This document shows positions 4,047 to 33,379 of a stretch of DNA of 64,000 bases, one piece after another. The position numbers and the translations under genes are program-made. The notes below the pieces were generated by a model. That model had not been told where the DNA came from, ran no database searches, and saw nothing but the letters and a program-made list of their open reading frames with translations. Position 1 is the first letter of the stretch; each line of letters opens with the position of its first letter. Source of the DNA: Gammaproteobacteria bacterium (GTDB lineage: Bacteria > Pseudomonadota > Gammaproteobacteria > Pseudomonadales > Azotimanducaceae); the NCBI GenBank assembly GCA_003247835.1, contig QJYB01000068.1:1-64000 (forward strand), given 5' to 3'.

Positions 4047-4101
4047 CGCTCCCCCCCGGATCCGGCGTCGGGAAAGCTTAGCACATGGTTCGATGATTGA
4101 A

Positions 4102-4824
4102 CTATTCGCGTTGCGCCGGTGAATCGAGAGTCCCGGTGATGGACTTCCGCTGGGAGACCTCGATCCAGTTGCCGTCCGGATCCCGGACGAAGCTGATGTG
4201 GGCTACCTCGCCGATCCGCACCGGCGCCATGCCTTCGCGACCACCCCGGGCCAGCACCGATTCGTGAACTCCCCGCACGTCGAAGACCTGCAGCGTGATG
4301 TAGCGGTATCCCCTGGCCTGCTGGACCGGGTCCGGCACCGCGTCGCCTTCGCTGAGCTCGAGCTCGGAGATGCCGACGTCGAACAATCCCGGGCGCCGTT
4401 CCGGGAGACCGAGCGCGTCCCCATAAAAAGCACGATGCCGCTCGAGGTCCGTCACCACCATCGACAACCGGAGCTGGCGGATGCCCTCCCATCCTTCCGG
4501 AACGAGCCGCACAACGTTGCCGTCGGGATCCGCCAGCAGTCGCGGCTCGTCGAGACCGGCCCGGGCCAGATGCAGGGTCCTGAAACCGGCGGGCGGGCTT
4601 TCCGGCAGCGGGTCCCGGGCATGGTTCACCTTCAGCACGCTGTCGCCGACGGCATGCCGGTACTGCTCGAGCTGCACGCCGAGCGTCAGCATTTCGGAAA
4701 AGGGTACACCTACGTCCTGCTGCCAGAACGCCAGCGCAGGTGCGATGCGGTTGGTGAAGAGCCCCACGTCCAGGGCCGGTTTTGCCAGTTCCAGTTCGTC
4801 CTCCCACCGGCTGCGACGTAACAT
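4102..4824 (-). CDS. Two-domain VOC (glyoxalase/bleomycin resistance) family protein
   Basis: The product has about 240 residues and contains two consecutive VOC modules. The first is degenerate (LADPDGNVVRLV at its end). The second is clearer, with LSMVVTDLERHRAFYGDALGL, YITLQVFDV and the closing FVRDPDGNWIEVSQR. VOC proteins bind a divalent metal and act as isomerases, lyases or dioxygenases. I chose the ATG at 4824 (MLRRSRWEDE), not the longer open frame from 4899, because the extra 25 residues have no family character. It is transcribed divergently from the MDR oxidoreductase 77 bases away and could share its regulation. Function is not assignable beyond fold. Confidence 0.8.
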   Translation of the reverse strand: MLRRSRWEDELELAKPALDVGLFTNRIAPALAFWQQDVGVPFSEMLTLGVQLEQYRHAVGDSVLKVNHARDPLPESPPAGFRTLHLARAGLDEPRLLADPDGNVVRLVPEGWEGIRQLRLSMVVTDLERHRAFYGDALGLPERRPGLFDVGISELELSEGDAVPDPVQQARGYRYITLQVFDVRGVHESVLARGGREGMAPVRIGEVAHISFVRDPDGNWIEVSQRKSITGTLDSPAQRE

Positions 4825-4901
4825 CGGAATTCCGGGTCTGCCGGTTCCGCACCACCCGTCAGCTGGGTGACAATACCCGCCAATCTCGGGGGAGATCACG
4901 G

Positions 4902-5903
4902 ATGCGTCAAGTCACCATCAATGAACGCGGCATCGAGGGCCTCGCGGTTTCCGAAGCCGCGGATCCGGAGCCGGGCGCCGGTGAGGTGCTCATCCGCATG
5001 CACAGCACGTCGCTCAACTACCGGGATCTCATGACCGTGAAGATGGCCGGCGCGCACCAGCCTGGTCTGGTCCCCAATTCCTGCGGCGCGGGCACCGTCA
5101 TCGCAACCGGTCCGGGGGTCACGCGGGTAGCCACGGGGGATCGCGTTTCGCCCATGTTCTTCCAGAAGTGGCTGGCGGGACCGCCGACCCGCGATGCGCT
5201 CGGTTCGGCACTGGGCGGACCCATCGACGGCTGCCTGCGGGAGCTGATGGTGCTCTCTGAAGAGGGTGTCACGAAGATTCCGGACTACATGAGCTTCGAC
5301 GAAGCCGCCACCCTGCCCTGCGCCGGGCTCACGGCCTGGCGGGGGCTCATCGAGGAGGGCCGACTCACAGCCGGCGAAGTGGTGCTGGTGCAGGGCACCG
5401 GCGGGGTGTCCATGTTCGCGCTGCAGTTCGCCAAGCTGTCCGGCGCCGAGGTCATACTCACCTCGTCCTCGGACGAGAAGCTCGAGCACGGCCGGCAGCT
5501 GGGCGCCGATCACACCATCAACTACCGCAGCACACCCGACTGGGCAGCCGAGGTGCACCGCATCACCGGCGGCCGCGGCGCCGATCACATCGTCGAGGTC
5601 GGGGGGGCGAACACGCTGCAGCAATCCATCGCGGCCGTGGCGCTCGGCGGGCACATTCACGTGATCGGCGTGCTCGGTGGCTTCGTCAACGACATCAACG
5701 TGGCGGAGCTGTTCCGCACCAACGCGAAGATTCACGGCATCACGGTCGGCAGCCGGCACATGTTCGAGAACATGATCCGCGCCATGACCGTGGCGGAAAC
5801 CCACCCCGTCATCGATCGCACGTTCCCGATGGCGCAGTGCCGCGAGGCATTCGCCCTCATGGAACGGGGTGGCCACTTCGGCAAGATCATCATCCATCAC
5901 TGA
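4902..5903 (+). CDS. Zinc-independent MDR alcohol dehydrogenase / quinone-oxidoreductase-like protein
   Basis: This is a medium-chain dehydrogenase/reductase of about 333 residues. It has the N-terminal GroES-like domain (STSLNYRDLMTVKM) and a Rossmann NAD(P) domain with VLVQGTGGVSMFALQFAK followed by LTSSSDEKLEHGRQLGADHTI. The usual catalytic-zinc Cys/His set is absent, as in the quinone-oxidoreductase/enoyl-reductase branch. The start ATG at 4902 has a GGGGGAG Shine-Dalgarno. The DUF1993 gene starts 32 bases downstream and is probably cotranscribed. It is a cytoplasmic NADPH-dependent reductase or dehydrogenase; the substrate is unknown. Confidence 0.88.
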   Translation: MRQVTINERGIEGLAVSEAADPEPGAGEVLIRMHSTSLNYRDLMTVKMAGAHQPGLVPNSCGAGTVIATGPGVTRVATGDRVSPMFFQKWLAGPPTRDALGSALGGPIDGCLRELMVLSEEGVTKIPDYMSFDEAATLPCAGLTAWRGLIEEGRLTAGEVVLVQGTGGVSMFALQFAKLSGAEVILTSSSDEKLEHGRQLGADHTINYRSTPDWAAEVHRITGGRGADHIVEVGGANTLQQSIAAVALGGHIHVIGVLGGFVNDINVAELFRTNAKIHGITVGSRHMFENMIRAMTVAETHPVIDRTFPMAQCREAFALMERGGHFGKIIIHH

Positions 5904-5935
5904 ACCTTCCGTTACCTGCAACAAGGAAACTCACC

Positions 5936-6457
5936 ATGGCTATCTCGCTCTACGACATCAGCGTTGCGTCTTACCTACAGACGCTCGGCGCCGTCAGCGG
6001 CTTTCTCGACAAAGGCAGAAGTTACTGCACGGACAAAGGCATCGATCTGACGGAGATCGTCGAGACCCGTCTGTACTCCGACATGCTGCCGTTCCGCTTC
6101 CAGGTGATCTCCGTGGTGCACCACTCACTCGGCGCCATCAAGGGCATCCAGGCCGGCGAGTTCAGCCCGCCTGCCGGTTACGGCGAGCCGGACTACGACG
6201 GTCTGCAGGCGCTGGTGGCCAGCACCAGAGCGGAACTGGAAGCACTGGACCGGGAGGCGGTGAACGCGCTGGAAGACAAGGACGTGGTGTTTGCGATCGG
6301 TGACCGCCGGATGCCGTTCGTTGCCCAGGACTTCGTGCTGTCGTTCTCGCTGCCGAATTTCCACTTCCATGCCGCCACGGCCTACGACATCCTCCGCATC
6401 GAAGGCGTACCCATCGGCAAGCGGGACTACATGGGCCCGCTGCGTATGAAGCGCTAG
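5936..6457 (+). CDS. DUF1993 family protein
   Basis: The 173-residue product matches the DUF1993 pattern: an N-terminal MAISLYDISVASYLQTLGAV, a central HHSLGAIKGI and a C-terminal LPNFHFHAATAYDILR-EGVPIGKRDYMG segment. The family adopts a four-helix DinB-like fold and has no established enzymatic role. The gene follows the MDR oxidoreductase by 32 bases on the same strand, with AAGGAAAC before the ATG. There is no signal peptide and no membrane segment. Confidence 0.85.
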   Translation: MAISLYDISVASYLQTLGAVSGFLDKGRSYCTDKGIDLTEIVETRLYSDMLPFRFQVISVVHHSLGAIKGIQAGEFSPPAGYGEPDYDGLQALVASTRAELEALDREAVNALEDKDVVFAIGDRRMPFVAQDFVLSFSLPNFHFHAATAYDILRIEGVPIGKRDYMGPLRMKR

Positions 6458-6491
6458 CAGACCCGTTCAGGTTTCCGGTGCGGGAGATCGG

Positions 6492-7151
6492 TTACGACTC
6501 GCGCGCCGGATTCTTGAAACGTTCTGTCAGGGCGTTCACGTTGTCGCGGTGGGTGATCAGCACCACTTCGTCGCCCACGACGAGCGCCACCTGATCGTCC
6601 GGAATCAGCAGTTCTCCGCCCCGATACAGACAGATGATCCGCGTCCGCTTGGGCAGCTCGAGCGCCGCTAAGTCCCCGGCTTCCTTCTCGCCGGCGACGA
6701 AGGAGAACACCCGCGCTTCCTCGCGGATCATGGTGGAGAACGCCAGCGGATCCCGCCCTTCGAAGAGATCTGCGAGATGCACGCCAACAGCACGGGAGGG
6801 AATGATGGTGTCCTCCAGGCCGAGCTCCAGACAGATGTGCTCGAGCTCCGGATCATCGATCTTGGTGACGATCCGGCCGAACCCCAGGGAACGTCCCACG
6901 AGGCTCGCGATCATGTTGCTCTTGTCGTCGCCGGTCAGACAGTAGAGGACGGTGGTGTGCTGAGGATCGGCTTCCCGCAGGATGGCGGGCCGGCTGCCGT
7001 CGCCACAGATGAAGCCGCAATCGAGCTCCTGGGACAGGGATCGGATGCGCTCCTGATCCTGCTCGACGACGACCACCTCGTGCCCGCGTTTGACCAGCAC
7101 CCGCGCCGTGTTCACGGCCAGAGATCCAGCGCCTACAAATACGGCCCTCAT
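6492..7151 (-). CDS. trkA: Trk potassium uptake regulatory subunit TrkA (single RCK unit)
   Basis: The 219-residue protein has an RCK_N Rossmann domain starting MRAVFVGAGSLAVNTARVL, with VVVVEQDQERI after beta strand 2, and a C-terminal RCK_C/TrkA_C domain (FSFVAGEKEAGDLAALELPK to LITHRDNVNAL). It is one RCK_N-RCK_C unit, half the length of the duplicated E. coli TrkA and like Ktr/short TrkA subunits. It gates the TrkH channel by NAD(H) or nucleotide binding on the cytoplasmic face. The ATG at 7151 overlaps the trkH stop as ATGA. A longer in-frame extension to 7790 lies antiparallel or alternate-frame to trkH and is not real. Confidence 0.92.
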   Translation of the reverse strand: MRAVFVGAGSLAVNTARVLVKRGHEVVVVEQDQERIRSLSQELDCGFICGDGSRPAILREADPQHTTVLYCLTGDDKSNMIASLVGRSLGFGRIVTKIDDPELEHICLELGLEDTIIPSRAVGVHLADLFEGRDPLAFSTMIREEARVFSFVAGEKEAGDLAALELPKRTRIICLYRGGELLIPDDQVALVVGDEVVLITHRDNVNALTERFKNPARES

Positions 7152-8608
7152 CTGCTTTCGATCCGTCTTCCCAGCCAGGTGCGCGGGTAAAGTACCACCA
7201 GCAGCGCGAGTATTTCCAACCGGCCGGCGAGCATGTCGAGACAGAGCACCAGCTTCAGTGGTGCGGGGAGATCCGGACCGGCCACACCGGCGGAAAGGCC
7301 TACGGTACCCGTGGCCGAGACCACATCGAACAGGGCATCGAACACAGGTTCGCCACCGGCCGCCATCACCAGCCATGACAGGACGACGGTCAGCAGAAAC
7401 AGCACCGTGACGACCAGCGCCCGCTGCACGTCCTCCGGAGCAAGGCTGCGTCCGCCCAGCCGCAGGTCCGTCACGGCGTGGCTCGACATGGAGGTCCGGC
7501 GTATCACGAAGCCCACGACCCGGGTGAGCACGAGCAGACGCAGGACCTTGATGCCACCCGCCGTGGAACCGACGCTGCCACCGACCAGCATGGCCAGGAT
7601 CATGATCAGCTTTGCTGCATCGCTGACTCCTCCCACATCCAGTGTCGAAAAACCCGCGGTGGTCTGGGCGGAACCGCCCAGCAGGCTGCCGTGATACGCC
7701 GCCTGCCGCCAGCTCATACCGTCGATGTGGTGCAGGATCAGCATCAACCCCACCGCCACCACGACGACCATCACGGGCAGCGCCCACCATTCCGGATTAC
7801 CCGTGAGGGCCAGACGACGCTGGCTCGCCAGATGGAAGTAGAGCAGCAGGGGCATGGCGCCGAGCAGCGAGGCACCGATGGTAATGAACGGCGCCGCCAC
7901 GGAAGGCATGTCCGCCAGGCTGTTCTCGTAACCGGAAAAGCCGCCGGTGGAAACGGCGGTCAGCGCGTGCAGCAATGCCTGGAAGCCGTCGTCGAGAGCG
8001 AGCCAGAGTGCTGCGATGACGAAGGCGGTGAGGATCAGGTACACCACCAGGACCCGGCGTGAGTAGTGTCTGGCCGATGCCGGCAGATTCTCCGGCGTGT
8101 CCAGACCGGCCAGGCGTCGCGCTCCGGACTGCATCCGCAGCACCAGGGCGATGGAGAAAACGGCAATGCCGAGGCCGCCGTACCACTGCATCCAGGCCCG
8201 CGTCAGCTTGAGACCGGGGCTGTAGGAGAACGCCGGAGAAACGGTGCTGAGACCGGTGGTGGTAACCGCAGAGATGGACTCGAACAGGGCATCCTCGAGG
8301 GGCAGCCCTTCCCCTGAATACGGGAGCAGCATGACGAGCGACGCAAGCAGGAACGTGAGCGTGACGATGACCAGCGCCTCGTTCTCCTGCAGTTGCATCG
8401 GCGTGGCCATGCGCCGGCCCGGCAGCCAGACCACCGCCAGCAATCCCACGACGACAGCAAGATTGGTGGCCAGTCGCAGCTCGTCCAGCAGGGCCGCGCC
8501 GAGCAGGGGTACCAGGGTCAGCGCGGCGAGCGCCAGCGAGAGCCGGCTCAGGTAATAGCCCAGTACCGCGGGTCGGACGGCATAGCTCAGGGCCGCCGCG
8601 CTGTCCAT
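7148..8608 (-). CDS. trkH: Trk potassium uptake channel subunit TrkH
   Basis: This 486-residue inner-membrane protein has about ten hydrophobic segments and the fourfold pore-loop signature of the Trk/Ktr/HKT superfamily. The pore loops read VTTTGLST, AVSTGGFSG, QTTAGFSTLD and SATGTVGLS, and each keeps the selectivity-filter Gly. With TrkA it forms the low-affinity potassium uptake system. It is the first gene of a two-gene operon and trkA overlaps its stop by four bases. The neighbouring MBL hydrolase gene ends 22 bases upstream on the same strand, so readthrough from the catabolic block is possible. Confidence 0.93.
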   Translation of the reverse strand: MDSAAALSYAVRPAVLGYYLSRLSLALAALTLVPLLGAALLDELRLATNLAVVVGLLAVVWLPGRRMATPMQLQENEALVIVTLTFLLASLVMLLPYSGEGLPLEDALFESISAVTTTGLSTVSPAFSYSPGLKLTRAWMQWYGGLGIAVFSIALVLRMQSGARRLAGLDTPENLPASARHYSRRVLVVYLILTAFVIAALWLALDDGFQALLHALTAVSTGGFSGYENSLADMPSVAAPFITIGASLLGAMPLLLYFHLASQRRLALTGNPEWWALPVMVVVVAVGLMLILHHIDGMSWRQAAYHGSLLGGSAQTTAGFSTLDVGGVSDAAKLIMILAMLVGGSVGSTAGGIKVLRLLVLTRVVGFVIRRTSMSSHAVTDLRLGGRSLAPEDVQRALVVTVLFLLTVVLSWLVMAAGGEPVFDALFDVVSATGTVGLSAGVAGPDLPAPLKLVLCLDMLAGRLEILALLVVLYPRTWLGRRIESR

Positions 8609-8630
8609 CAGGCTTTTCCGGCGCCGGACG

Positions 8631-9587
8631 TCAGCGCTGCCGGTCCTTCTTCAGACGCGACATGAGCCCGAACAGGGCGGCCGCGTCCGCCGGCGAGTCG
8701 TCACCGTTGAGCCCGCGATAGATGGTGTTCACTGTTACGGCGATCCGCTCGAAGTCACCCCAGCTCTGATAGTCACCGAGGGCGATGTCGAACGCCGCCT
8801 CCTCCGCGCTGAGTCCTGCCGCGTGACGCTTGCGCGTCTCCTCGTTCACGAAGATCAGGTAGTCGCGCATCACGGCAACACCAGCCCGGTCCGTAATCGG
8901 TCCGTGGCCGGGAACCACTACGTCCACGTCGTGCTCGATGATCTGATCGCAAGCCCGGATCCAGTTGTCCACCGGACCCGCCCACATGATGGGTGTGCCG
9001 TCGACGAAGAGAATGTCGCCGGTGTAGACCACCCGGTCTTGCGGAACGTACACCAGCACGTCACCGAGCGTGTGGGCAGGACCCACCTCCACGAGATGGA
9101 CATCCTTGTCACCGACCTTCACGTCCAGCGAACCGGAGAAGGTCTTTGTGGGCATCCTCAGGGTGATGCCCGCGAAATCGAAGTCGCCGAAACAGTACTG
9201 GAAGAACTCCCCCACCTCACCCATGGAAGGTGCTGCTTCCATCATCCGCGCCATCACGGCCGGCGGCAGCTCTTCCATCTCATGGGCACCCGCCTTCGAG
9301 GCGATGATCTCGGCATTCTCGATCAGCCGATTGCCGTAGGTGTGATCGCCGTTGGCGTGGGTGTTGACCAGAGTGGTGACATCACTACCACCGATACCCG
9401 TGGCAGCACGCATGGTGGCCAGCATTTCTGCCGTCAGCTTCTCGTCGAAAAGCGTATCCACCAGCAGCGACTGATCGCCATCGACCACGAGACCCGCGTT
9501 GCTGTAGCCCCAGGTGCCGGTCGGCTGCAGGTACGCGTACTGACCGTTGCCGATCTCGTGCAGTCCCTTGGTGAATGCCCAGCTCAT
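8631..9587 (-). CDS. MBL-fold metallo-hydrolase with HxNxDH motif
   Basis: The 318-residue protein has the metallo-beta-lactamase fold: LVVDGDQSLLVDTLFD, then the metal motif THANGDHTYGN, then GPAHTLGD, VVYTGDILF and VVPGHGP. The second ligand of the canonical HxHxDH is Asn here. This is seen in a subset of MBL hydrolases and would leave one zinc site altered. There is no signal peptide. The start ATG has a GGAGGAG Shine-Dalgarno. It is the last gene of the minus-strand catabolic arm led from the operator at 14282, so it probably hydrolyses an ester, thioester or lactone intermediate of that pathway. Confidence 0.87.
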   Translation of the reverse strand: MSWAFTKGLHEIGNGQYAYLQPTGTWGYSNAGLVVDGDQSLLVDTLFDEKLTAEMLATMRAATGIGGSDVTTLVNTHANGDHTYGNRLIENAEIIASKAGAHEMEELPPAVMARMMEAAPSMGEVGEFFQYCFGDFDFAGITLRMPTKTFSGSLDVKVGDKDVHLVEVGPAHTLGDVLVYVPQDRVVYTGDILFVDGTPIMWAGPVDNWIRACDQIIEHDVDVVVPGHGPITDRAGVAVMRDYLIFVNEETRKRHAAGLSAEEAAFDIALGDYQSWGDFERIAVTVNTIYRGLNGDDSPADAAALFGLMSRLKKDRQR

Positions 9588-21028: not shown

Positions 21029-21418
21029 ATGACGGATTCGGAACTGAGAGCGCTCTGCCACCGTTTCCTCGACGCCATCGAGCGGCAGGACTTCGAAACT
21101 GTTGCAGATGTTTACCACCCGGAACTCCGCTTCTGGGTAAACCTGACTGGCAAAGAGCTCTCCCGCGACGAGAGCCTCAGCGTGCTGCGCGAAGGTGCCG
21201 GCCGCCACCGGCGGCGGACCTACGACGATCGCACCATCAACACCTTCGACACCGGTTTTCTCGCCCGGTACACGTGCACGGTCGTTACTCACGATGGCAC
21301 GAGGACGGCGCTCTGGGCCTGCCTGGTGGCCCGGTGCCACGAGGGCCGGATCGTGCGCATGGACGAGTACCTGGATTCCGGCAAATTCGGCCGACCACCC
21401 GGGAGCACCGGCGGATGA
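21029..21418 (+). CDS. SnoaL-like / NTF2-fold protein, copy 1
   Basis: The 129-residue protein has the SnoaL/NTF2-like cone fold pattern: LCHRFLDAIERQDFETVADVYHPE, a central RRRTYDDRTINTFDTGFLARYT and a final GRIVRMDEYLDSGKF. SnoaL-like proteins are small isomerases, cyclases or dehydratases, or mere ligand-binding proteins. It has about one-third identity by eye with the next two gene products. Its ATGA overlap with copy 2 shows one transcription unit, probably driven from the operator region at 20879. Confidence 0.85.
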   Translation: MTDSELRALCHRFLDAIERQDFETVADVYHPELRFWVNLTGKELSRDESLSVLREGAGRHRRRTYDDRTINTFDTGFLARYTCTVVTHDGTRTALWACLVARCHEGRIVRMDEYLDSGKFGRPPGSTGG

Positions 21419-21846
21419 CGATGACGGATGGCGAGATCCGCGAGCTCTGCAACCGCTTCTTCGACGCTTATCAGGATCGGCGCATCGAGGAACTCGCCCA
21501 GATCTACTCGAACGACTGCATCGTCTGGCACAACGTCTTCGGCCGGGAGACCACGGGCCGTGAAAACCTCGCGGCGCTCCCGGACAGCTACCCGATGCAG
21601 CGGCGGCGGACCTACAACGACCGGATCGTCGATACGTTCGACGGGGGCTTCGTGATCCGCTACACGCTGCACGGGGTGCAGCACAGCGGCCATCAGGGAG
21701 CGCTGTGGATCTGCATCGTCGGGTTGTGCCGAGACGGCAGAATCACCCGCATCGACGAGTACATGGACTCCGGAAAATTCGCGGCCTGGCGGGGCGGCTC
21801 CCGGGCAGCCGTATATGAGGGAGAGAAAGAGGGAGGAAAGGCATGA
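21415..21846 (+). CDS. SnoaL-like / NTF2-fold protein, copy 2
   Basis: The 143-residue product is the middle of three tandem paralogues. The motifs LCNRFFDAYQDRRIEELAQIY, VWHNVFGRETTGRENLAAL and RITRIDEYMDSGKFAAW follow copy 1 in order. The WH pair in VWHN is shared with copy 3 but is WV in copy 1, so copies 2 and 3 may keep an active-site His that copy 1 lacks. The ATG at 21415 overlaps copy 1's stop. Its C-terminus is extended by a charged tail (YEGEKEGGKA). Confidence 0.85.
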   Translation: MTMTDGEIRELCNRFFDAYQDRRIEELAQIYSNDCIVWHNVFGRETTGRENLAALPDSYPMQRRRTYNDRIVDTFDGGFVIRYTLHGVQHSGHQGALWICIVGLCRDGRITRIDEYMDSGKFAAWRGGSRAAVYEGEKEGGKA

Positions 21847-22241
21847 GACAGGACTGGAACCTGCTGCAGCTCTGCGACCGGTTCTTCGACGCCATCGAAC
21901 GGGGCGACCATGAGACCCTCGAGAGCTGCTACGCACCGGAGGCGGTCGTCTGGCACAGCCACGACTGTCTCTATCAGCCCCGGGCGGAGAACCTGGCCAT
22001 GCTCGAGGCCGGTATGAAGCGGAACAAGAAGATGCGCTTCAGGAACCGTCGCGTGCACCCGTTCGAAGGGGGCTTCGTGCAGCAGCATACGCTGCACATC
22101 ACCACGGAGAACGATTTCGAAGGGAAGATGGACGTCTGTTTCGTCGCCTACGTGCGCGACGGCATGATCTCAAGGATCTACGAGTACTTCGATACGGGCC
22201 AGATCGACAGATTTCTGGGGCCCACCAGCGGCCGGGGTTGA
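21843..22241 (+). CDS. SnoaL-like / NTF2-fold protein, copy 3
   Basis: The 132-residue product is the third SnoaL-like paralogue: LCDRFFDAIERGDHETLESCYAPE, VVWHSHDCLYQPRAENLAML, RRVHPFEGGFVQQHTLH and SRIYEYFDTGQ. An ATGA overlap couples it to copy 2, and GAGGAAAG lies before its ATG. The chain of three related small enzymes suggests either a hetero-oligomer or successive steps on one substrate. The Cache/channel-like gene begins 9 bases after its stop. Confidence 0.85.
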   Translation: MRQDWNLLQLCDRFFDAIERGDHETLESCYAPEAVVWHSHDCLYQPRAENLAMLEAGMKRNKKMRFRNRRVHPFEGGFVQQHTLHITTENDFEGKMDVCFVAYVRDGMISRIYEYFDTGQIDRFLGPTSGRG

Positions 22242-22250
22242 GCAGAGAGA

Positions 22251-24335
22251 TTGCGCCACGCCAGCCTGCTCCATGGCCTGCTGATCACCGGCGCAGTCGC
22301 GCTGACGGGCTACCTGCTCGTCGACTACGTCAACTACGAACGGGATCGGGACCAGCAGAGCATAGAGCTGGGGCGGGAGGCCGGTGTCCGGGTTGCCGAC
22401 GCACTGGATGCTCAGCTGTCCGCGATTTCTGAGCGCGCCGTCCGTTTCGCAGCCGGGCTCGGCACGATCACCGACGAGGAAACGCTACTCGGCAGCATCC
22501 GCGAGGAAAGTCTGTCACTGCCCCTGCTGCTCGGCGTGACGGTAGCTTACGAGCCGGGGCGCTTCGCCGGCAAGGATCGCTTCGCGCCGTTCTTCAACAA
22601 GAGCCGCGATGAGTTTCAGTTCGTGGAGGATACCTACGACTACACCTCGCCGGAGCTCGACACCGCCCGCTGGTACACGGAAGTGGTGGGCAGCGGCGAA
22701 CCGGGCTGGTCCGACCCCTACTTCGCCGAAGCAGCCAGAGAGATGGTGGTGGACTACGGCGTGCCGCTGCGCAATCCCGACGGCGATCTGATCGGCACGG
22801 TGGACTATACGATTTCGCTCAGTGACTTCACGCGCATCGTCGATGAGCTGGCGGTGGGTGAGTCGGGATACGGATTCACCTTCGAGCCCGATGGCGCCAT
22901 CGTCTCCCACCCGGACCCGGACTATCTGATGCAGAACGTCTATCAGATCCGGGATGGCAAGGATGAAGCCATCGTCGCCAGGATGCGCAGCGAGCCCGAA
23001 GGCGTGGTCCAGTATCACAGCACCTATACGTACCGCTATTCCTGGTTCTTCTTCAGGGCACTCGAATCCACCGGCTGGAAGAGCGTGCTGGTCTTCGCCG
23101 AAGACGACCTCCTCGGCGCTTCGGATCAGGGCCGCAGAAAGAAGATCCACATCGCCATGGGCGTCGGCCTGCTGCTGATCACGGTGCTGGCATTCGTGTT
23201 CCGCATCGAGCACTACGACCCGCCCCGGTTGTGGTGGCTGGTCGGCACTGTATCCCTCGTCATCGTCGGCAACGTCGTCACCATCTGGTACCTGAACCTC
23301 TCCACAGATTTCTCGCTGCTCAACAACGAGCAGGAGCGGATCGTCAATGGCACGGTCAGGAACCGCTACATCAAGGCCTACGACGACGAGCTGTACCGGC
23401 TGACCCAGACCCACTACCACAGGGTGCCCACCGGTATCTTCATCGAGTCCGTCGAGCTGACGTCCTTCGAAGCCAGCGTCATCGGCAGGCTCTGGATGAA
23501 GTACCCCAAGACGCTCTACGAAACCACGCCACCGGCCTTCTACATGCCCGACGTCTCCTCACTGGAAGCCCGCGGGCTGAACAGCGAGCTGATCTCCGAG
23601 GTGGATGCGGGTGACTACGTGCTGGTGACCTGGCGATTCCGGGCGCTGCTCGAGCAGCATTTCAGCTACCGGCAGTTCCCGTTCGAGCAGAATGACATCC
23701 GGCTGACCTTCCTTTATCCCGATCTCGACAGCAATGTGCTGTTCGTGCCGGACCTGGAGAGCTACGAGATCATCAATCCATCCACGCGGCCCGGGATGAA
23801 CCCGTCCATAACGATGCCCTCTTCCGAGATCATCTCGTCGTTCTTCACGTTCGATGATCAGGACTACCAGACGAGCTTCGGCAGCAGCAGTCCGCTTGCC
23901 AGCCATCCGGTGCTATCGTTCAACCTGGTGGCGAAGCGGATATTCGTGAATCCCCTGATCGCCAACATCATCCCCATCCTGATCGTCGCGCTGATCATGT
24001 TCATCGTGCTGTACGTCTCATCGAAGAACAGTGATGACAGATCCGGCATGACGATCATGAACGTCATCCAGAGCGCTGCCGGCCTGCTCTTCATTCTCGT
24101 CCTCGCGCACGTCAACGAACGCAACCGGATTCAGACCCCCGAGATCGCCTACATCGAGCTCTTCTACTTCTCGATGTACGTGCTGATCACACTGCAGTCC
24201 TGCCTCCTGGCCGCGCTGTTCCGCGGCGCCGAATGGAGGATCTTCGATTTTCACGACAATCTGGTGCTGAAGCTCCTCTTCTGGCCGCTGCTGCTGTCAA
24301 CGTGGTACGGCCTGACCTTGATCCGCTTCTACTGA
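22251..24335 (+). CDS. Cache-domain sensor fused to a pentameric ligand-gated ion channel-like segment
   Basis: The 694-residue membrane protein starts at TTG (22251) after GAGCAGAGAGA. TM1 spans about 8-26. A periplasmic dCache-like domain spans 30-290, with WYTEVVGSGEPGWSDPY at 141-157, VPLRNPDGDLIGTVDYTISL at 171-190 and GYGFTFEPDGAIVSHPDP at 206-223. TM2 is 300-318 and TM3 328-348. A second outside, beta-rich domain (about 365-560) contains FPFEQND at 476-482, resembling the FPFDxQ of the Cys/Pro loop. Four hydrophobic segments close the chain (about 566-590, 600-620, 632-655, 668-692). The first carries a central NIIP as in channel M1. No cytoplasmic HAMP, kinase or cyclase domain follows. 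By comparison it is a ligand-gated channel with an added sensor domain; the channel half is inferred from motif order. Confidence 0.7.
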   Translation: MRHASLLHGLLITGAVALTGYLLVDYVNYERDRDQQSIELGREAGVRVADALDAQLSAISERAVRFAAGLGTITDEETLLGSIREESLSLPLLLGVTVAYEPGRFAGKDRFAPFFNKSRDEFQFVEDTYDYTSPELDTARWYTEVVGSGEPGWSDPYFAEAAREMVVDYGVPLRNPDGDLIGTVDYTISLSDFTRIVDELAVGESGYGFTFEPDGAIVSHPDPDYLMQNVYQIRDGKDEAIVARMRSEPEGVVQYHSTYTYRYSWFFFRALESTGWKSVLVFAEDDLLGASDQGRRKKIHIAMGVGLLLITVLAFVFRIEHYDPPRLWWLVGTVSLVIVGNVVTIWYLNLSTDFSLLNNEQERIVNGTVRNRYIKAYDDELYRLTQTHYHRVPTGIFIESVELTSFEASVIGRLWMKYPKTLYETTPPAFYMPDVSSLEARGLNSELISEVDAGDYVLVTWRFRALLEQHFSYRQFPFEQNDIRLTFLYPDLDSNVLFVPDLESYEIINPSTRPGMNPSITMPSSEIISSFFTFDDQDYQTSFGSSSPLASHPVLSFNLVAKRIFVNPLIANIIPILIVALIMFIVLYVSSKNSDDRSGMTIMNVIQSAAGLLFILVLAHVNERNRIQTPEIAYIELFYFSMYVLITLQSCLLAALFRGAEWRIFDFHDNLVLKLLFWPLLLSTWYGLTLIRFY

Positions 24336-27626: not shown

Positions 27627-27998
27627 ATGGCATTCAAAGGCGTGGATCACGTGGTCGTGCGCGTGGCGGATCTGGAGTCGGCGATCGAGGGTTACTCGAA
27701 GATCCTCGGCACGGCACCCGAGCGACGTCACTCCGCCGAGCTGAAAGCGGATCAGGCGTTCTACTACTTCGACAACGGCACGTTTCTCGAGCTCATCTCG
27801 CCGACGGAGGACGGATCGCCCATCGCCGGCTCGCTGAAAAAGCTGGGCGACGGCATTCACACAGTGGCCTTTGCAGTGGACGACGCGAAGCAGACCGTGG
27901 CCGATCTGGACGGTAAGGGTGTACGGACCATCGGTGGCGCCTTCGTCCATCCTGCTTCGGCGAACGGTGTGCTGGTGCAGCTGTCGGAGCGTCGTTGA
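27627..27998 (+). CDS. VOC family protein (methylmalonyl-CoA epimerase-like)
   Basis: The 123-residue single VOC module has FKGVDHVVVRVADLESAIEGYSKILG at the start, GTFLELISPTEDGSPI in the middle and GIHTVAFAVDD with its metal-type His. The combination of an early His, GTFLELISP and a HTVAF motif resembles methylmalonyl-CoA epimerase and related small glyoxalase-like proteins. GAGGGGAAGAGG precedes the ATG. Its TGA overlaps the TTG start of the giant VWA gene as TTGA, so the two are coupled, which is odd given their different cell locations. Confidence 0.8.
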   Translation: MAFKGVDHVVVRVADLESAIEGYSKILGTAPERRHSAELKADQAFYYFDNGTFLELISPTEDGSPIAGSLKKLGDGIHTVAFAVDDAKQTVADLDGKGVRTIGGAFVHPASANGVLVQLSERR

Positions 27999-30900
27999 CA
28001 GGTCCCCGGTCGGGCTTGTACTGCCTGACCGCCCTTCTCCTGCTCGCAGCGGGCGCGCAGGGGGAAGTCAACGTCTACGAGTCCGAACCCAACGACACAC
28101 CGGAGGCTGCGACGCCCATCGCCGGCGAGGTGGCACTCTACGGCTCGATGCTGCCAGGCGATCAGGACGGCTTCCGCTGGACGGTGTCCGACGACGACGC
28201 CGGCAAACGCTGGACGTTCACGCTGTACGGCGTGCCGGGCGCCACGACGATCGCGGACCTGGTCCGGATTCAGTATGCGGACGACGGCTCGGTGGCGGTG
28301 GCGGACCGGCTCATGCAGATGGGAACCCGGGACGGGTCCGTCCCGTCGGTTCACAGGGGCCAGCTGTTCGACCCCGGTGAATATCTGATCGGCATCGCCC
28401 GTGCGGGTGGACCCGAGACTCCAGGTGGCAGCCCGTTCAGCCCGCCGTCGCTGGCCGGCGCTCTCAGCGACAAAGCGTCGCCCGCAGATGCGTCTCCTAA
28501 AACTCCGAAGGGAGCGGTGTCCGCCGCAGACGAAACCCCAGGCGCCTGGCGTTTCGTCATCCGTCAGGATTCGGTCCTCCCCATCGCTCAGCAGCCGGTG
28601 CCGGGCGATACCCGGGAGACCGCGGTCCTGCTGCGACCGGGTACGGAGCGTGCCCGCTACGAGACCGAGCTAAGGGTCTGGTACGGCCTGACCTTCACCG
28701 AGGCGCATGCCGGTCAGCGCTGGGACGTGGACGTCCGCGTTCCCATCGGCCGCCCGCTCACTGCGCGTCTGGTCGACGCGGACGGTACCGAGCTCGGCAG
28801 TCGCACCCCTGACGATCACGGGCTGATCCGGTTCGCCGACCTGGCGCCCGGGGTCACGACCTGGTTCCTCGAGTTGACCACGCCGGAGTCGGGATTCGTG
28901 CAGGCGGTGTCCAGCACGGCGGTCGGGGTGCGTGTGCAGGGCGAGGAAGCAGAGCCGAACGACGACCGCAACCTGGCCAATCGCGTGGATCTGTCGACCC
29001 CGCTCACCGGGCGGATCAGATCGGGTGAGCCGGCGGACTCGTTCACCTTCCCGATCACGGAGTCGCTGGCAGATCAGCAGCTCGTCCTCACCATCGATGC
29101 CACACCACCGGCAACCCTGCGCGCCCTGCTGACGGACCCGGGAGGCGATCAGGCTCAGTACCGGAATTACCAGACACCCATGGTCTTTCCCGATCTGGCG
29201 CTCGCTGCCGGTGACTGGGGCCTGACCCTGTCCAATACCTCCGAAGACACTACCTACACCGTCACGCTGACGTCCCAGGGTCCTCTGCCGAGCGGCATGG
29301 AGGTCGAGCCGAACGACACCATCGACCGCGCCAGCGGCGTTCCGGCCAACCTGCGGATCAAGGGACGATTCAGCGACACGGAGAGCGACTTCTTTCAGCT
29401 GCAGGTGCCCGGAGAACCGCAGCTCTGGCGGTTCCAGGCGATGGGCGACGGGCTCTTCGAGTTGGCCTACTACGATGGCGGTCTCGAGCAGCGGGCCGTG
29501 CTTCGGGTGCAGGGCGAGCAGCGGCGGCTGCGTCTCGATGACGTGTTTCTGCTGCCCGGTCGCCACTTCCTGCGCGTTTCGGGCAGGGACGGCGGTACCT
29601 ATACCCTGCTCGCCCGGCCGGTCGGCCCACCGGATCCGAACGGTGAGCTCGAGCCGAACGACGAGTTCAACATGCAGCGGCTCGCCTTCGGTCAGCATCG
29701 CACCGGGCTGCTTGCCGAAGGCGCAGACATCGACAATTACCGGTTTTTTCTCGGCAACTGGGAGCACATCCGCCTGAGCGTGACGCCACCGCCTGACGGC
29801 ATCGTCGATCCCGATCTCTACTGGTACGGCGAGCTGCTCGGTGACGGTCAGCCGGTGAGTCCCGGGGAACCGATCTCGGTGGAGGGTCTGTTCCCGCCCG
29901 GCGACTACCGGGTCGCACTGTCGCCCCGTCAGGTGAGCGACGGCGAGTACGCGCTCAGCCTGGAGCGCCTGCCCCGTTTCACCTGCCCGGCGGACTGCGA
30001 GCCGAACGGCATGGGCAGAATCTGGCTGGCGGCTCCGCTGCCCGCGGATCTGGTCCTCGAAGGTCGAACGGGAGAATGGCGGGACACCGACGTCTACCAG
30101 CTGCCCGCCTTCGAGCAGCCGACGGAACTGCTGATACGCACGGCGCAACCGGTCGGCTCGCTGGCCATCGGCCTCCACGACCAGAACCAGGATCGGTTGA
30201 CCTTCGATGCCGATCTCGGCGGCTATCGGGCGACGGTGCCCGCGGGCGGACCCTACCGGCTAGAGGTCGACGCCGGTGGGCAACGCTACCGGCTCAGCCT
30301 CGACTTCCCCAACGGCGCGCTCACACCGGTGAGCGGATCGCCGGACGCCGAGCTCACCCTGTCGCTCACGAATGATTCGGTCTCGGCCTACCGGAGTGAC
30401 GGTCAGCAGGTTCATGGAACGCTCGAGATTGCCAACCGGGGCAGCGAACCGCTGCCGCTCGATCTCGAGTCCGCATCCAGTGATTACCGGTGGCACGCGA
30501 TGCTCGATGAGAACGCGGTAACGGTGCCGGCCGGCGGTCGGCTTTCGGTACCCATCACCGTCGAGGTGCCCGCTGACGCCTGGGCCGACCGACCGGTGCG
30601 GATCAGTGTGGGTGCCCGCGACGCATCCGGTCGGCAGACACAGACGTGGTCCGAGCTCGCGGTCAGTCGTGATCTCGCCAGCGTCGAGCCCCACCTCTAC
30701 TGGCCGATTCCGGACGCGCTGCGGGGCGGGTTCAATGCCGCCTGGCTGCCCTTCGGCGCGACGCTCGATGACGAGTCGATCCCCGGTATCGATATGCTGC
30801 GCGACGGCCTCAACTTTCCGGACATCAGCATGGCGTGCTGCGGCGCCTATGGCTGGACGGAGGCGGAGCAACCCGTCTTCACGCTGGATCTGCCGGGAGA

Positions 30901-33379
30901 CGAGCCGCTGCCGGTGGCCGGTATCGCCCTGGACCACTTCGGCACGTCGAGCCCCTACGACAACGTCCGCGAAGCAGCGCTGCTGCTTTCCCAGGACGGC
31001 GTCGAGTTCCGCGAGGTGCTGCGCTTCGAGACCGAGGCCATCGAAACGGAACAGCACTTCGCGCTCGAGACACCGGTGCCTGCCCGCTTTGCCCGCCTGG
31101 TGGTGCACAGCACCTTCGAGGATCCCCGCTACCAGCGGTTGTCCGCCGCCGAGTGGAAGGTGATTCTCGAGCCCGGCTTCGACCTGTCCCACGGCGAGGG
31201 CTTCAATCTGGCGTCGCCGGCGCTCGGCGGTCATCTGGTCTGGGACGCACCGGCGGAGGCACTGCACCCTGTCCACGTTCTCGAAGACCGGGACCAGGCC
31301 GAGGCGATCACCCTGCGCGACGAGACTGTGAAGGACTACGTGTTCGCCTTCCACCAGAACCGCGCCGCCCGGATCGCCCGCATCGACTGGCTCTATCCTG
31401 ACACGCTCGACGAGAGTTCGACGACTTTCCAGACCGTGAGCCTCTCGGTCAGTCTGAATTCACCCGCCGGCCCCTGGTTGCCGATCGGCAAGCTGGATCT
31501 GTCCGGTGCCGTGTCCGAAGCGTCGCTGACACTGCCCGATGCACCCTGGGCCCGGTTCGTGCGACTGTCCGCCGAGAAACCGCCCGAAGGCTACTCGGCG
31601 TACGCGCCCGGACTCATCCGGATCTGGGAGCGACCCGGTGGCGACGACTACACGTCCGTGCTCACCGAGTGGGGCAGCATCGGTCCGAAGGCGTTCTACG
31701 AGCTCGCGACCGGACTCCATCCGGAACCCGGCCTGGTGGCGGTCGGCAACGACAGCCGCGCGAGCGCTGCGGAGCTTCCCATCGGAGAGGCGGCCCGGGG
31801 TCAGGTATCTCTCGGCACGCAGACGCACTGGTACCGGCTGATCATGCCGGAAGGGACCAATACGCTGAACCTGACCCTGAACGGCGATCCCACGGTGCGC
31901 ACGGTGCTGTCCCTCGAGGACGAAGCCGGTACGCAGATCCGGCTGCGCCGGGTCGATCAGCAGGAGCGGCTCGACGAGCACCGCTTCGAGGCGGTCGTCG
32001 ACGCCGGCGCCACCGTGTGGCTGGCGGTCAGCGAGCCGCCGCGCAACGTGGTCTTCGCCTGGGACACGAGCGCCAGCGTCAATGCCTACATCCCGCTGAT
32101 CAGAAACTCGCTGGTGGCGTTCAGCGGCCAGGTCGTGCCCGGACAGGAGGCGGTGAACCTGATGCCGTTTTCCATGCAGCCGCTGCTCCGGGACTGGTAT
32201 GGCGAGCCGTACATGCTGCAGACCATCCTCAACGACCACCGGCGCGGCAGCACGTCGAGCTCCGCGGAGTGGACGCTGATGGCTGCCGCCGAGGCGCTCG
32301 GACCGAGAGCGGGTACCAAGGCCGTGGTCGTGATCACCGATGCCGAGACGCCGGAGGAACCGGGCCTGTGGGCGGCGCTGCTCGCGACGCAACCACGCGT
32401 GTTCGGCATCGGCGTCGCCGGCAGCAGACGTCTCGAGCAGAACCTGTTCCGCGACTGGGCCAGCGTCAACGGTGGTCAGTACACGCAGCTGCGTTATCAG
32501 GGCGAGATGGAGATCGCGTTCGACCGCGCGAGCACGCTCATGCATCGGCCGGCCGGCTACACGCTGCGCGCTGCAGCCGAGTTCCGCGAGGCGCCCGGTC
32601 CGGGACGCCTGCAGGTGCTGGCAGGATCCGACCGCGGTACCGCCCGCGGTCGCGCCGTCGAGCTGATCCTGGACGCTTCGGGGTCGATGCTGCAGCGCAT
32701 GGAAGGCGAACGCCGCATCAGCATCGCCAAGGACATGCTCACGGAAGCAGTGCGCGAGCACATTCCGGCGGGTACACCCGTTGCCCTGCGCGTGTTCGGT
32801 CACCGCAAACCCAATGCCTGTGAGAGCGACCTCGAGCTGCCGCTCGGGCCCCTCGACCCGGCGGCCGCCGCCGGTGTGATCGCCGGTGTCCAGGCCATGA
32901 ACCTGGCGAAGACGCCCATCGCCGACTCGCTGGCGGCCGTACCGGGTGACATCGGCGGTGCTCGGAACGTGACGGTGGTTCTGGTCACCGATGGCGAGGA
33001 AACCTGCGACGGCAATCCGGCGGCAGTGATCGGGCAGCTCAAGGGTCAGGGCATTGCGGTGAGTCTGAACATCGTCGGCTTCGCCATCGACGATGCGGAG
33101 CTCGCAGCGCAGTTTCGCGACTGGGCGGCGCTGGGTGGCGGCCGCTACTTCGCAGCCGACGATCCCCGGGGTCTGCAGGATGCGCTGGAAGGTGCGCTCG
33201 CGCTGACCTACACGGTGACCGATCCGGGCGGCAACACCGTGGCCGAGGGCGCGGTCGGCGCGGACCCGGTGACGCTCGACCCCGGGACCTACCGGGTGCG
33301 CGTGAACTCGGGATCGGGGAAGATCTTCGAGGCGGTGGTCGTGGAGGGAGGCCGCGACGTGACGTTGACTGTCGACTGA
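27995..33379 (+). CDS. Giant exported multidomain protein with PPC-like repeats, discoidin-like domains and two VWA domains
   Basis: The 1794-residue protein starts at TTG (27995), overlapping the VOC stop, and has a signal peptide cut after about residue 23 (AAGAQG). Five EPND/EPNG motifs (near residues 30, 319, 438, 552 and 669) open beta-sandwich units of the pre-peptidase C-terminal (PPC) kind. The middle (about 900-1230) holds two stretches resembling F5/8 discoidin-type ligand-binding domains, with RFARLVV and RFVRLS-type endings. Two von Willebrand A domains follow, with MIDAS motifs DTSAS (about 1357) and DASGS (about 1560); the second also has TDGEET. A short beta domain ends the chain. 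No protease or sortase motif is visible. An adhesion or scaffold role at the surface is inferred. Confidence 0.8.
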   Translation: MTGPRSGLYCLTALLLLAAGAQGEVNVYESEPNDTPEAATPIAGEVALYGSMLPGDQDGFRWTVSDDDAGKRWTFTLYGVPGATTIADLVRIQYADDGSVAVADRLMQMGTRDGSVPSVHRGQLFDPGEYLIGIARAGGPETPGGSPFSPPSLAGALSDKASPADASPKTPKGAVSAADETPGAWRFVIRQDSVLPIAQQPVPGDTRETAVLLRPGTERARYETELRVWYGLTFTEAHAGQRWDVDVRVPIGRPLTARLVDADGTELGSRTPDDHGLIRFADLAPGVTTWFLELTTPESGFVQAVSSTAVGVRVQGEEAEPNDDRNLANRVDLSTPLTGRIRSGEPADSFTFPITESLADQQLVLTIDATPPATLRALLTDPGGDQAQYRNYQTPMVFPDLALAAGDWGLTLSNTSEDTTYTVTLTSQGPLPSGMEVEPNDTIDRASGVPANLRIKGRFSDTESDFFQLQVPGEPQLWRFQAMGDGLFELAYYDGGLEQRAVLRVQGEQRRLRLDDVFLLPGRHFLRVSGRDGGTYTLLARPVGPPDPNGELEPNDEFNMQRLAFGQHRTGLLAEGADIDNYRFFLGNWEHIRLSVTPPPDGIVDPDLYWYGELLGDGQPVSPGEPISVEGLFPPGDYRVALSPRQVSDGEYALSLERLPRFTCPADCEPNGMGRIWLAAPLPADLVLEGRTGEWRDTDVYQLPAFEQPTELLIRTAQPVGSLAIGLHDQNQDRLTFDADLGGYRATVPAGGPYRLEVDAGGQRYRLSLDFPNGALTPVSGSPDAELTLSLTNDSVSAYRSDGQQVHGTLEIANRGSEPLPLDLESASSDYRWHAMLDENAVTVPAGGRLSVPITVEVPADAWADRPVRISVGARDASGRQTQTWSELAVSRDLASVEPHLYWPIPDALRGGFNAAWLPFGATLDDESIPGIDMLRDGLNFPDISMACCGAYGWTEAEQPVFTLDLPGDEPLPVAGIALDHFGTSSPYDNVREAALLLSQDGVEFREVLRFETEAIETEQHFALETPVPARFARLVVHSTFEDPRYQRLSAAEWKVILEPGFDLSHGEGFNLASPALGGHLVWDAPAEALHPVHVLEDRDQAEAITLRDETVKDYVFAFHQNRAARIARIDWLYPDTLDESSTTFQTVSLSVSLNSPAGPWLPIGKLDLSGAVSEASLTLPDAPWARFVRLSAEKPPEGYSAYAPGLIRIWERPGGDDYTSVLTEWGSIGPKAFYELATGLHPEPGLVAVGNDSRASAAELPIGEAARGQVSLGTQTHWYRLIMPEGTNTLNLTLNGDPTVRTVLSLEDEAGTQIRLRRVDQQERLDEHRFEAVVDAGATVWLAVSEPPRNVVFAWDTSASVNAYIPLIRNSLVAFSGQVVPGQEAVNLMPFSMQPLLRDWYGEPYMLQTILNDHRRGSTSSSAEWTLMAAAEALGPRAGTKAVVVITDAETPEEPGLWAALLATQPRVFGIGVAGSRRLEQNLFRDWASVNGGQYTQLRYQGEMEIAFDRASTLMHRPAGYTLRAAAEFREAPGPGRLQVLAGSDRGTARGRAVELILDASGSMLQRMEGERRISIAKDMLTEAVREHIPAGTPVALRVFGHRKPNACESDLELPLGPLDPAAAAGVIAGVQAMNLAKTPIADSLAAVPGDIGGARNVTVVLVTDGEETCDGNPAAVIGQLKGQGIAVSLNIVGFAIDDAELAAQFRDWAALGGGRYFAADDPRGLQDALEGALALTYTVTDPGGNTVAEGAVGADPVTLDPGTYRVRVNSGSGKIFEAVVVEGGRDVTLTVD

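Follow-up and report, generated by a model that had tools for sequence, protein, structure and literature searches.

The gene at positions 22251 to 24335 of the window, that is, of the whole 64,000-nucleotide stretch of DNA that was analysed, encodes in a single polypeptide a Cache sensor domain and the core of a pentameric ligand-gated ion channel (pLGIC), which are separated by a conserved transmembrane hairpin and have descended as one unit. We consider it probable that the product belongs to the pLGIC superfamily of prokaryotes and forms a homopentameric channel for cations or anions in the inner membrane, gated or modulated by the ligand of its Cache domain. The Cache-pLGIC architecture is not new, having been described by computer analysis in 2004. 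What the present analysis adds is the conserved TM2-TM3 hairpin between Cache and channel, a Cache-less branch that retains TM3, a channel subfamily recognised by neither Pfam nor NCBIfam, and a Cache domain that, in the clade of the window protein, carries none of three published ligand motifs. Bacteria use Cache domains as one of their commonest kinds of extracellular sensor, and in animals pLGICs act as the fast receptors for neurotransmitters. With both in one protein, it can be asked directly if a sensor of the chemoreceptor type is able to gate a channel, and the role of pLGICs in bacteria can be addressed equally directly. The family is practical for this, as it offers a single gene and natural Cache-less variants for comparison.

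Layout of the gene and identity of its two halves

21029-21418, 21412-21846 and 21843-22241, + strand: three tandem SnoaL-like genes directly upstream (PF12680 in all three)
22251..24335, + strand: Cache-pLGIC fusion gene, 694 aa, TTG start, with full-length orthologues
22251..22337, + strand: TM1, continuous with the stalk helix at the N-terminus of the Cache domain (residues about 1-29; helix 2-70 in the full-length model)
22338..23123, + strand: dCache_1 domain, predicted periplasmic (residues about 30-291; PF02743, PF22673 and PDB matches)
23124..23300, + strand: TM2-TM3 hairpin (helices 292-317 and 324-350 in the full-length model, with a short turn predicted to be cytoplasmic)
23301..23939, + strand: pLGIC ectodomain (residues 351-563; linker helix and beta sandwich), with the Pro-loop FPFEQND at residues 476-482 and a family-conserved PDLxxY segment at residues 500-505
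23940..24332, + strand: four-helix channel domain M1-M4 (residues 564-694), with Pro575 in M1, and M2 at about 602-626 with His620 and Arg624

The TTG start codon lies nine bases past the stop of the nearest SnoaL-like gene. As three orthologues (L002, L003 and L005) are likewise 694 aa long and align from residue 1, the start at this TTG is supported. A full-length model built with 13 sequences (mean pLDDT 78.6) contains helices at residues 2-70, 292-317 and 324-350, a beta ectodomain at 390-563 and four terminal helices at 566-588, 602-626, 633-657 and 671-693. On this model the topology reads, in order, as TM1, periplasmic Cache, TM2, a short cytoplasmic turn, TM3, periplasmic ectodomain and M1-M4, so that seven transmembrane helices per subunit are predicted, three of them in addition to M1-M4. 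An earlier description made from the sequence alone (the sequence-only reading) had given this open reading frame of 694 residues, with a Cache-like domain between two helices, a third helix, a beta-rich domain and four terminal hydrophobic segments, and both Pfam and the full-length model bear this layout out.

In the Cache part, Pfam returned PF22673 at 46.4 bits (cutoff 27) and dCache_1 PF02743 at 45.4 bits (cutoff 45). A Pfam scan of the whole protein matched nothing besides Cache, and an NCBIfam scan gave no match to any part of it. Among PDB entries, Cache chains matched with E values down to 1.1e-13 to 1.5e-13 (9hvj, 1.1e-13), followed by PctB and PctA at about 1e-9 and the histidine kinase sensor 3lib at 5.5e-8. 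In this whole-protein search of the PDB the significant matches were Cache domains only, and the channel half is thus probably missed by routine annotation.

The C-terminal 373 residues were considered through a profile (A1), in which they are aligned with 15 relatives from public genomes. Searched against the PDB, A1 found GLIC, both as plain chains and within chimeras, with E values from 3.5e-7 to about 4e-5 over the ectodomain and M1-M3, and the 60 matches listed are all of these two kinds. The AlphaFold2 model of A1 (mean pLDDT 82.9, pTM 0.73) placed GLIC and GABA-A subunits at the top of a Foldseek search, with E about 1e-12, and was aligned to GLIC by VIA-align with Z 20.8 and an rmsd of 2.6 A over 277 residues; GluCl, GlyR and GABA-A reached Z of about 20, the fold matches covering model residues 64-373. 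A1 also retrieved pLGICs fused to a PBP-I sensor (E about 1e-14 to 1e-11), one of which (L033) gives marginal, sub-threshold matches to PF02931 and PF02932. None of 16 family members matched the Pfam channel models, and a genome-wide search with PF02931 found no match in the window genome, but none in control genomes either, and so carries no weight as evidence. Since other bacterial pLGIC relatives likewise score under the Pfam cutoff, the missing channel match reflects the sensitivity of the models.

The hallmark motifs noticed in the sequence-only reading, FPFEQND in the ectodomain and NIIP in M1 (residues 572-575), are indeed present, and their prolines are conserved across the family: Pro477 of the Pro-loop in 30/30 members and Pro575 of M1 in 31/31. 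Position 479 holds an acidic residue (D or E) in 27/30, and an Arg precedes M1 at position 563 in 28/31. This conservation across relatives argues that the Pro-loop and M1 motifs are not due to chance. Taken together, the A1 matches, the fold of the A1 model, the PBP-I-fused relatives and the conserved hallmark residues identify the C-terminal half as a genuine pLGIC core, from a subfamily that has diverged. The proposal of a Cache domain joined to a pLGIC module with no cytoplasmic output domain is thereby upheld by profile search, fold comparison, homology to PBP-I-fused pLGICs and conservation in relatives; among the matches listed, the profile search assigned the C-terminal half to a channel family and to no non-channel family.

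Relatives, descent and genomic surroundings

Full-length orthologues with 62-64% identity are found in four other genomes, namely two Pseudomonadota MAGs (one Halioglobus and one Gammaproteobacteria) and two Myxococcales MAGs. The gene is present as one copy each in the window genome and in these four close relatives, which fits a homomer. A search with the full protein gave no match in three genomes of the same genus and 32 others of the same family, and more distant Cache-pLGICs are spread over many families. Within the window clade, identity amounts to 63-65% in the Cache domain, 62-64% in the ectodomain and 69-74% in the channel domain.

All aligned relatives that bear a Cache domain possess the TM2-TM3 hairpin. 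Short relatives, about 385 aa in length, start at TM3; they are devoid of Cache, TM1 and TM2 and keep the ectodomain and M1-M4. In a midpoint-rooted maximum-likelihood tree of the channel core of the 31-row family, the subfamily forms one group (support 100/100), and the short forms are a single clade (99/96) joined to Cache-bearing lineages at moderate support (84/93). Cache and channel have thus been inherited together through the 31-row family, with Cache-less forms in one clade only. The simplest reading is one old fusion followed by a single loss of Cache, with TM3 retained as an anchor, the direction of this change being an inference on a midpoint-rooted tree.

No neighbouring gene is common to the window and the four orthologues, and the orthologues share no neighbours among themselves apart from one weak 30% match, which suggests a stand-alone gene that has spread horizontally. 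A recent foreign origin was considered and set aside, as composition gives no sign of it: the GC3 of the gene is 0.85 versus 0.78-0.86 in neighbouring genes. The three upstream SnoaL_2/DUF4440 genes overlap each other by a few bases; they are probably a local duplication and are possibly co-transcribed with the channel gene. The idea that SnoaL or GntR neighbours might recur did not hold, neither being found beside the four closest relatives, and they were rejected as functional partners. Further along the window, at 27995-33379, the ORF listing contains an ORF of 1794 aa whose N-terminus is signal-like and which has repeated 'EPND' segments and, toward the C-terminus, an apparent von Willebrand-type sequence.

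In two other branches, Cache-fused and short channel genes form part of, or adjoin, clusters for extracellular contractile injection systems (eCIS). In one genome (G256, C51; L084:535-18000 and L052:49-9887), genes for a sheath, two tail tubes, a spike, gp25, baseplate J, a tape measure and an Afp15-like AAA ATPase are followed in the same run by those for a TPR protein, a Cache-pLGIC, a canonical pLGIC, a methyltransferase, a short pLGIC and an eCIS_core protein. Similar arrangements occur in L056 (G127:C19), L058 (G184:C51), L083 (G297:C1) and L054 (G261:C81), and in L057 (G378) a short pLGIC gene adjoins an eCIS_core gene. The three pLGIC-type genes of L052, Cache-fused, canonical and short TM3-anchored (4049-6166, 6194-7294 and 8068-9240), lie within 5.2 kb, an arrangement that suggests heteromeric channels or a channel set tied to one eCIS. 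In G297, the canonical pLGIC beside the Cache-pLGIC (L083:5891-6994, - strand) appears split into two successive ORFs (212 and 139 aa), and is perhaps broken or bears a sequencing error. A tape-measure gene occurs in 7/274 class-sample genomes, five of which also carry a channel of the family, compared with a family match in 13/369 sampled genomes overall (approximate Fisher p 2e-6, for two samples that differ slightly and genomes that are partly related). A search of part of the eCIS literature found no mention of channels and no published link between the two. The window genome, which is 88.8% complete, and the four orthologue genomes yielded no CIS tape-measure gene; the window gene was accordingly rejected as an eCIS part, and the eCIS association does not explain the window protein. 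For a physiological role, the eCIS-linked branches may offer the more promising starting point.

The Myxococcota sample holds a further arrangement. In L072:1393-3735 (+ strand), the pLGIC core comes first and a SBP_bac_5 solute-binding domain (PF00496, E 7.9e-30) follows after M4; L073:1-2433 (- strand) has a similar layout as judged by eye. This inverted order would put the sensor at a periplasmic C-terminus.

Sensor, predicted pore and possible gating

Three ligand motifs published for dCache domains were compared with the window protein: dCache_1AA for amino acids, consisting of R126 and D173 (PctA numbering) with aromatic residues (PMC10104139); dCache_1AM for amines, defined by a conserved Asp equivalent to PctA D173 or PctD D235; and dCache_1PU for purines, consisting of F167 and D169 (McpH numbering; PMC11245519). 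In the alignment with PctA, the aromatic residues W128, Y129 and Y144 recur in the window clade, and R126, D146 and D173 are not conserved. Assignment by the amino-acid motif failed as R126 is replaced by A or T and D173 by T, S or A, assignment by the amine motif on the same replacement of D173, and assignment by the purine motif because the residues aligned to it are D168 and G170 (S in L002). With R126, D146 and D173 absent, the window clade thus shows none of the amino-acid, amine and purine motifs; instead, it has a conserved Asp at each of residues 168 and 185 of the window protein. The Asp at the D173 equivalent is retained in the distant Cache relatives L006, L012, L014, L015, L017, L018 and L019, and ligand specificity therefore appears to have changed inside the family while the channel did not. 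The Cache domain of the window clade may bind something unusual, or nothing.

In M2, the most conserved face consists of residues 602, 606, 610, 613, 617, 620 and 624. This face would coincide with the pore-lining positions -2', 2', 6', 9', 13', 16' and 20' if Glu623 is aligned to GLIC 19'; the periodicity of conservation is not significant (p 0.13), and a three-residue gap in the HMMER alignment to GLIC fits on either side of M2, so that a second register is allowed. Ion selectivity was accordingly not read from M2, as the register is uncertain and the face analysis favours one register only at this p value. The predicted face is largely hydrophobic (I606, A610, L613 and V617) with an outer His/Arg ring: His620 is found in 30/31 and Arg624 in 31/31 members, and these residues may form rings at the outer mouth of the pore.

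In the mechanism that we favour, each subunit would carry a periplasmic dCache domain on its own pair of transmembrane helices, with a third helix ahead of the channel ectodomain. A small molecule bound at the Cache domain would open, close or tune the channel, and coupling would probably pass through the stalk and the TM2-TM3 hairpin, packed against the outer helices of the channel, together with contacts of neighbouring periplasmic domains. The sole output would be ion flux and the resulting change in membrane potential. Chemoreceptor Cache domains usually work as dimers, which is at odds with a five-fold symmetry and weighs against a pentamer; likewise, the loss of the canonical ligand Asp (PctA D173) in the window clade counts against gating by a Cache ligand. 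A more specific version, that the ligand signal reaches the pore via the membrane-embedded hairpin and not by periplasmic stacking, and that the window clade senses an uncharacterised class of Cache ligands, is offered tentatively and may well prove wrong; to our knowledge, such a hairpin-type gating route is seen in no pLGIC structure.

It is rather unlikely, though worth weighing, that the Cache domain does not gate at all. It could instead concentrate ligand or aid assembly or localisation, the channel being gated by its own ectodomain in the manner of GLIC and DeCLIC, for example through protons or divalent cations. The clade of short relatives, which keeps TM3, ectodomain and M1-M4 in the absence of Cache, is in line with this, and protons could be sensed by His620, a conserved residue close to the outer end of M2. 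Moreover, a bacterial pLGIC can be gated with no domain added to it, and calcium commonly inhibits members of the family (PMC9897478). However, this deep family has kept the fusion with Cache in its other branches, and within the window clade the Cache domain and the ectodomain are conserved to much the same degree, both of which count against this view.

That the pLGIC-like half is non-conducting and serves as a membrane scaffold or a conformational relay for a partner seems improbable. The mostly hydrophobic M2 face with its His/Arg ring would be compatible with such a role, and no electrophysiology was found in the literature; but closed pLGICs normally have hydrophobic pore gates, conservation is highest in the channel domain, a cytoplasmic domain is lacking, and the four orthologues have no conserved partner gene beside them. 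Finally, it is hardly credible that the fusion is an assembly or gene-prediction artefact of a metagenome-assembled genome, as its patchy distribution, with the empty same-genus and same-family genomes, might suggest, since the same full-length order in four independent genomes refutes an artefact, distant Cache-pLGICs exist in many families and the GC3 matches that of the neighbours.

Comparison with known systems

The closest precedent for a Cache-gated or Cache-modulated channel is the third bacterial ART-LGIC architecture of Tasneem, Iyer, Jakobsson and Aravind (Genome Biol 2004, PMC549065), an MCP-N/Cache domain fused to the core module, which was reported in Methanosarcina, Cytophaga hutchinsonii and Microbulbifer degradans and for which that paper proposes a chemosensory role with allosteric interplay. 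Full-text searches, largely of journals outside subscription, retrieved no later paper on a Cache domain with a pLGIC and nothing relevant on dCache with a ligand-gated ion channel. The sequence-only reading had known of no well-characterised protein with this domain order; the order itself turns out to have been described in silico, and conductance data or laboratory tests were found for no Cache-pLGIC in the literature searched. Experimental work on such channels may thus be lacking. The window protein has the 2004 architecture, with MCP-N/Cache N-terminal to the pLGIC core in one polypeptide, and like those proteins it combines an N-terminal Cache-type sensor, a pLGIC ectodomain and four transmembrane segments in a predicted homopentameric chemosensory channel. 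As far as their description goes, it differs from them in its TM2-TM3 hairpin, which is unmentioned there, and its branch is without Pfam or NCBIfam channel matches.

GLIC, the proton-gated channel of Gloeobacter violaceus (3eam, 6zgk), is the best profile and structure match of the C-terminal half and shares with it the ectodomain and M1-M4 fold, the Pro-loop, the M1 Pro and the pre-M1 Arg. At about 15% identity to GLIC, the window protein adds three transmembrane helices, the Cache domain, a linker helix and the conserved PDLxxY. The PBP-I-fused pLGICs (L033, L036 and L032) likewise have an N-terminal small-molecule sensor on a distantly related pLGIC core, whereas their sensor is a Peripla_BP_6 domain and no hydrophobic hairpin is apparent before the ectodomain. 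The added N-terminal domain of DeCLIC is not known to be a Cache domain or to be separated from the ectodomain by transmembrane helices. DeCLIC (Desulfofustis; PMC9897478, PMC12664993) nevertheless resembles the window protein as a bacterial pLGIC with an extra periplasmic domain, which in DeCLIC modulates gating. On the sensor side, the chemoreceptors PctA and PctB and the histidine kinase sensor 3lib share the Cache fold, with W128, Y129 and Y144 of PctA retained; they differ from the window clade in R126, D146 and D173, and in the window protein the output is a channel rather than a methyl-accepting or kinase domain.
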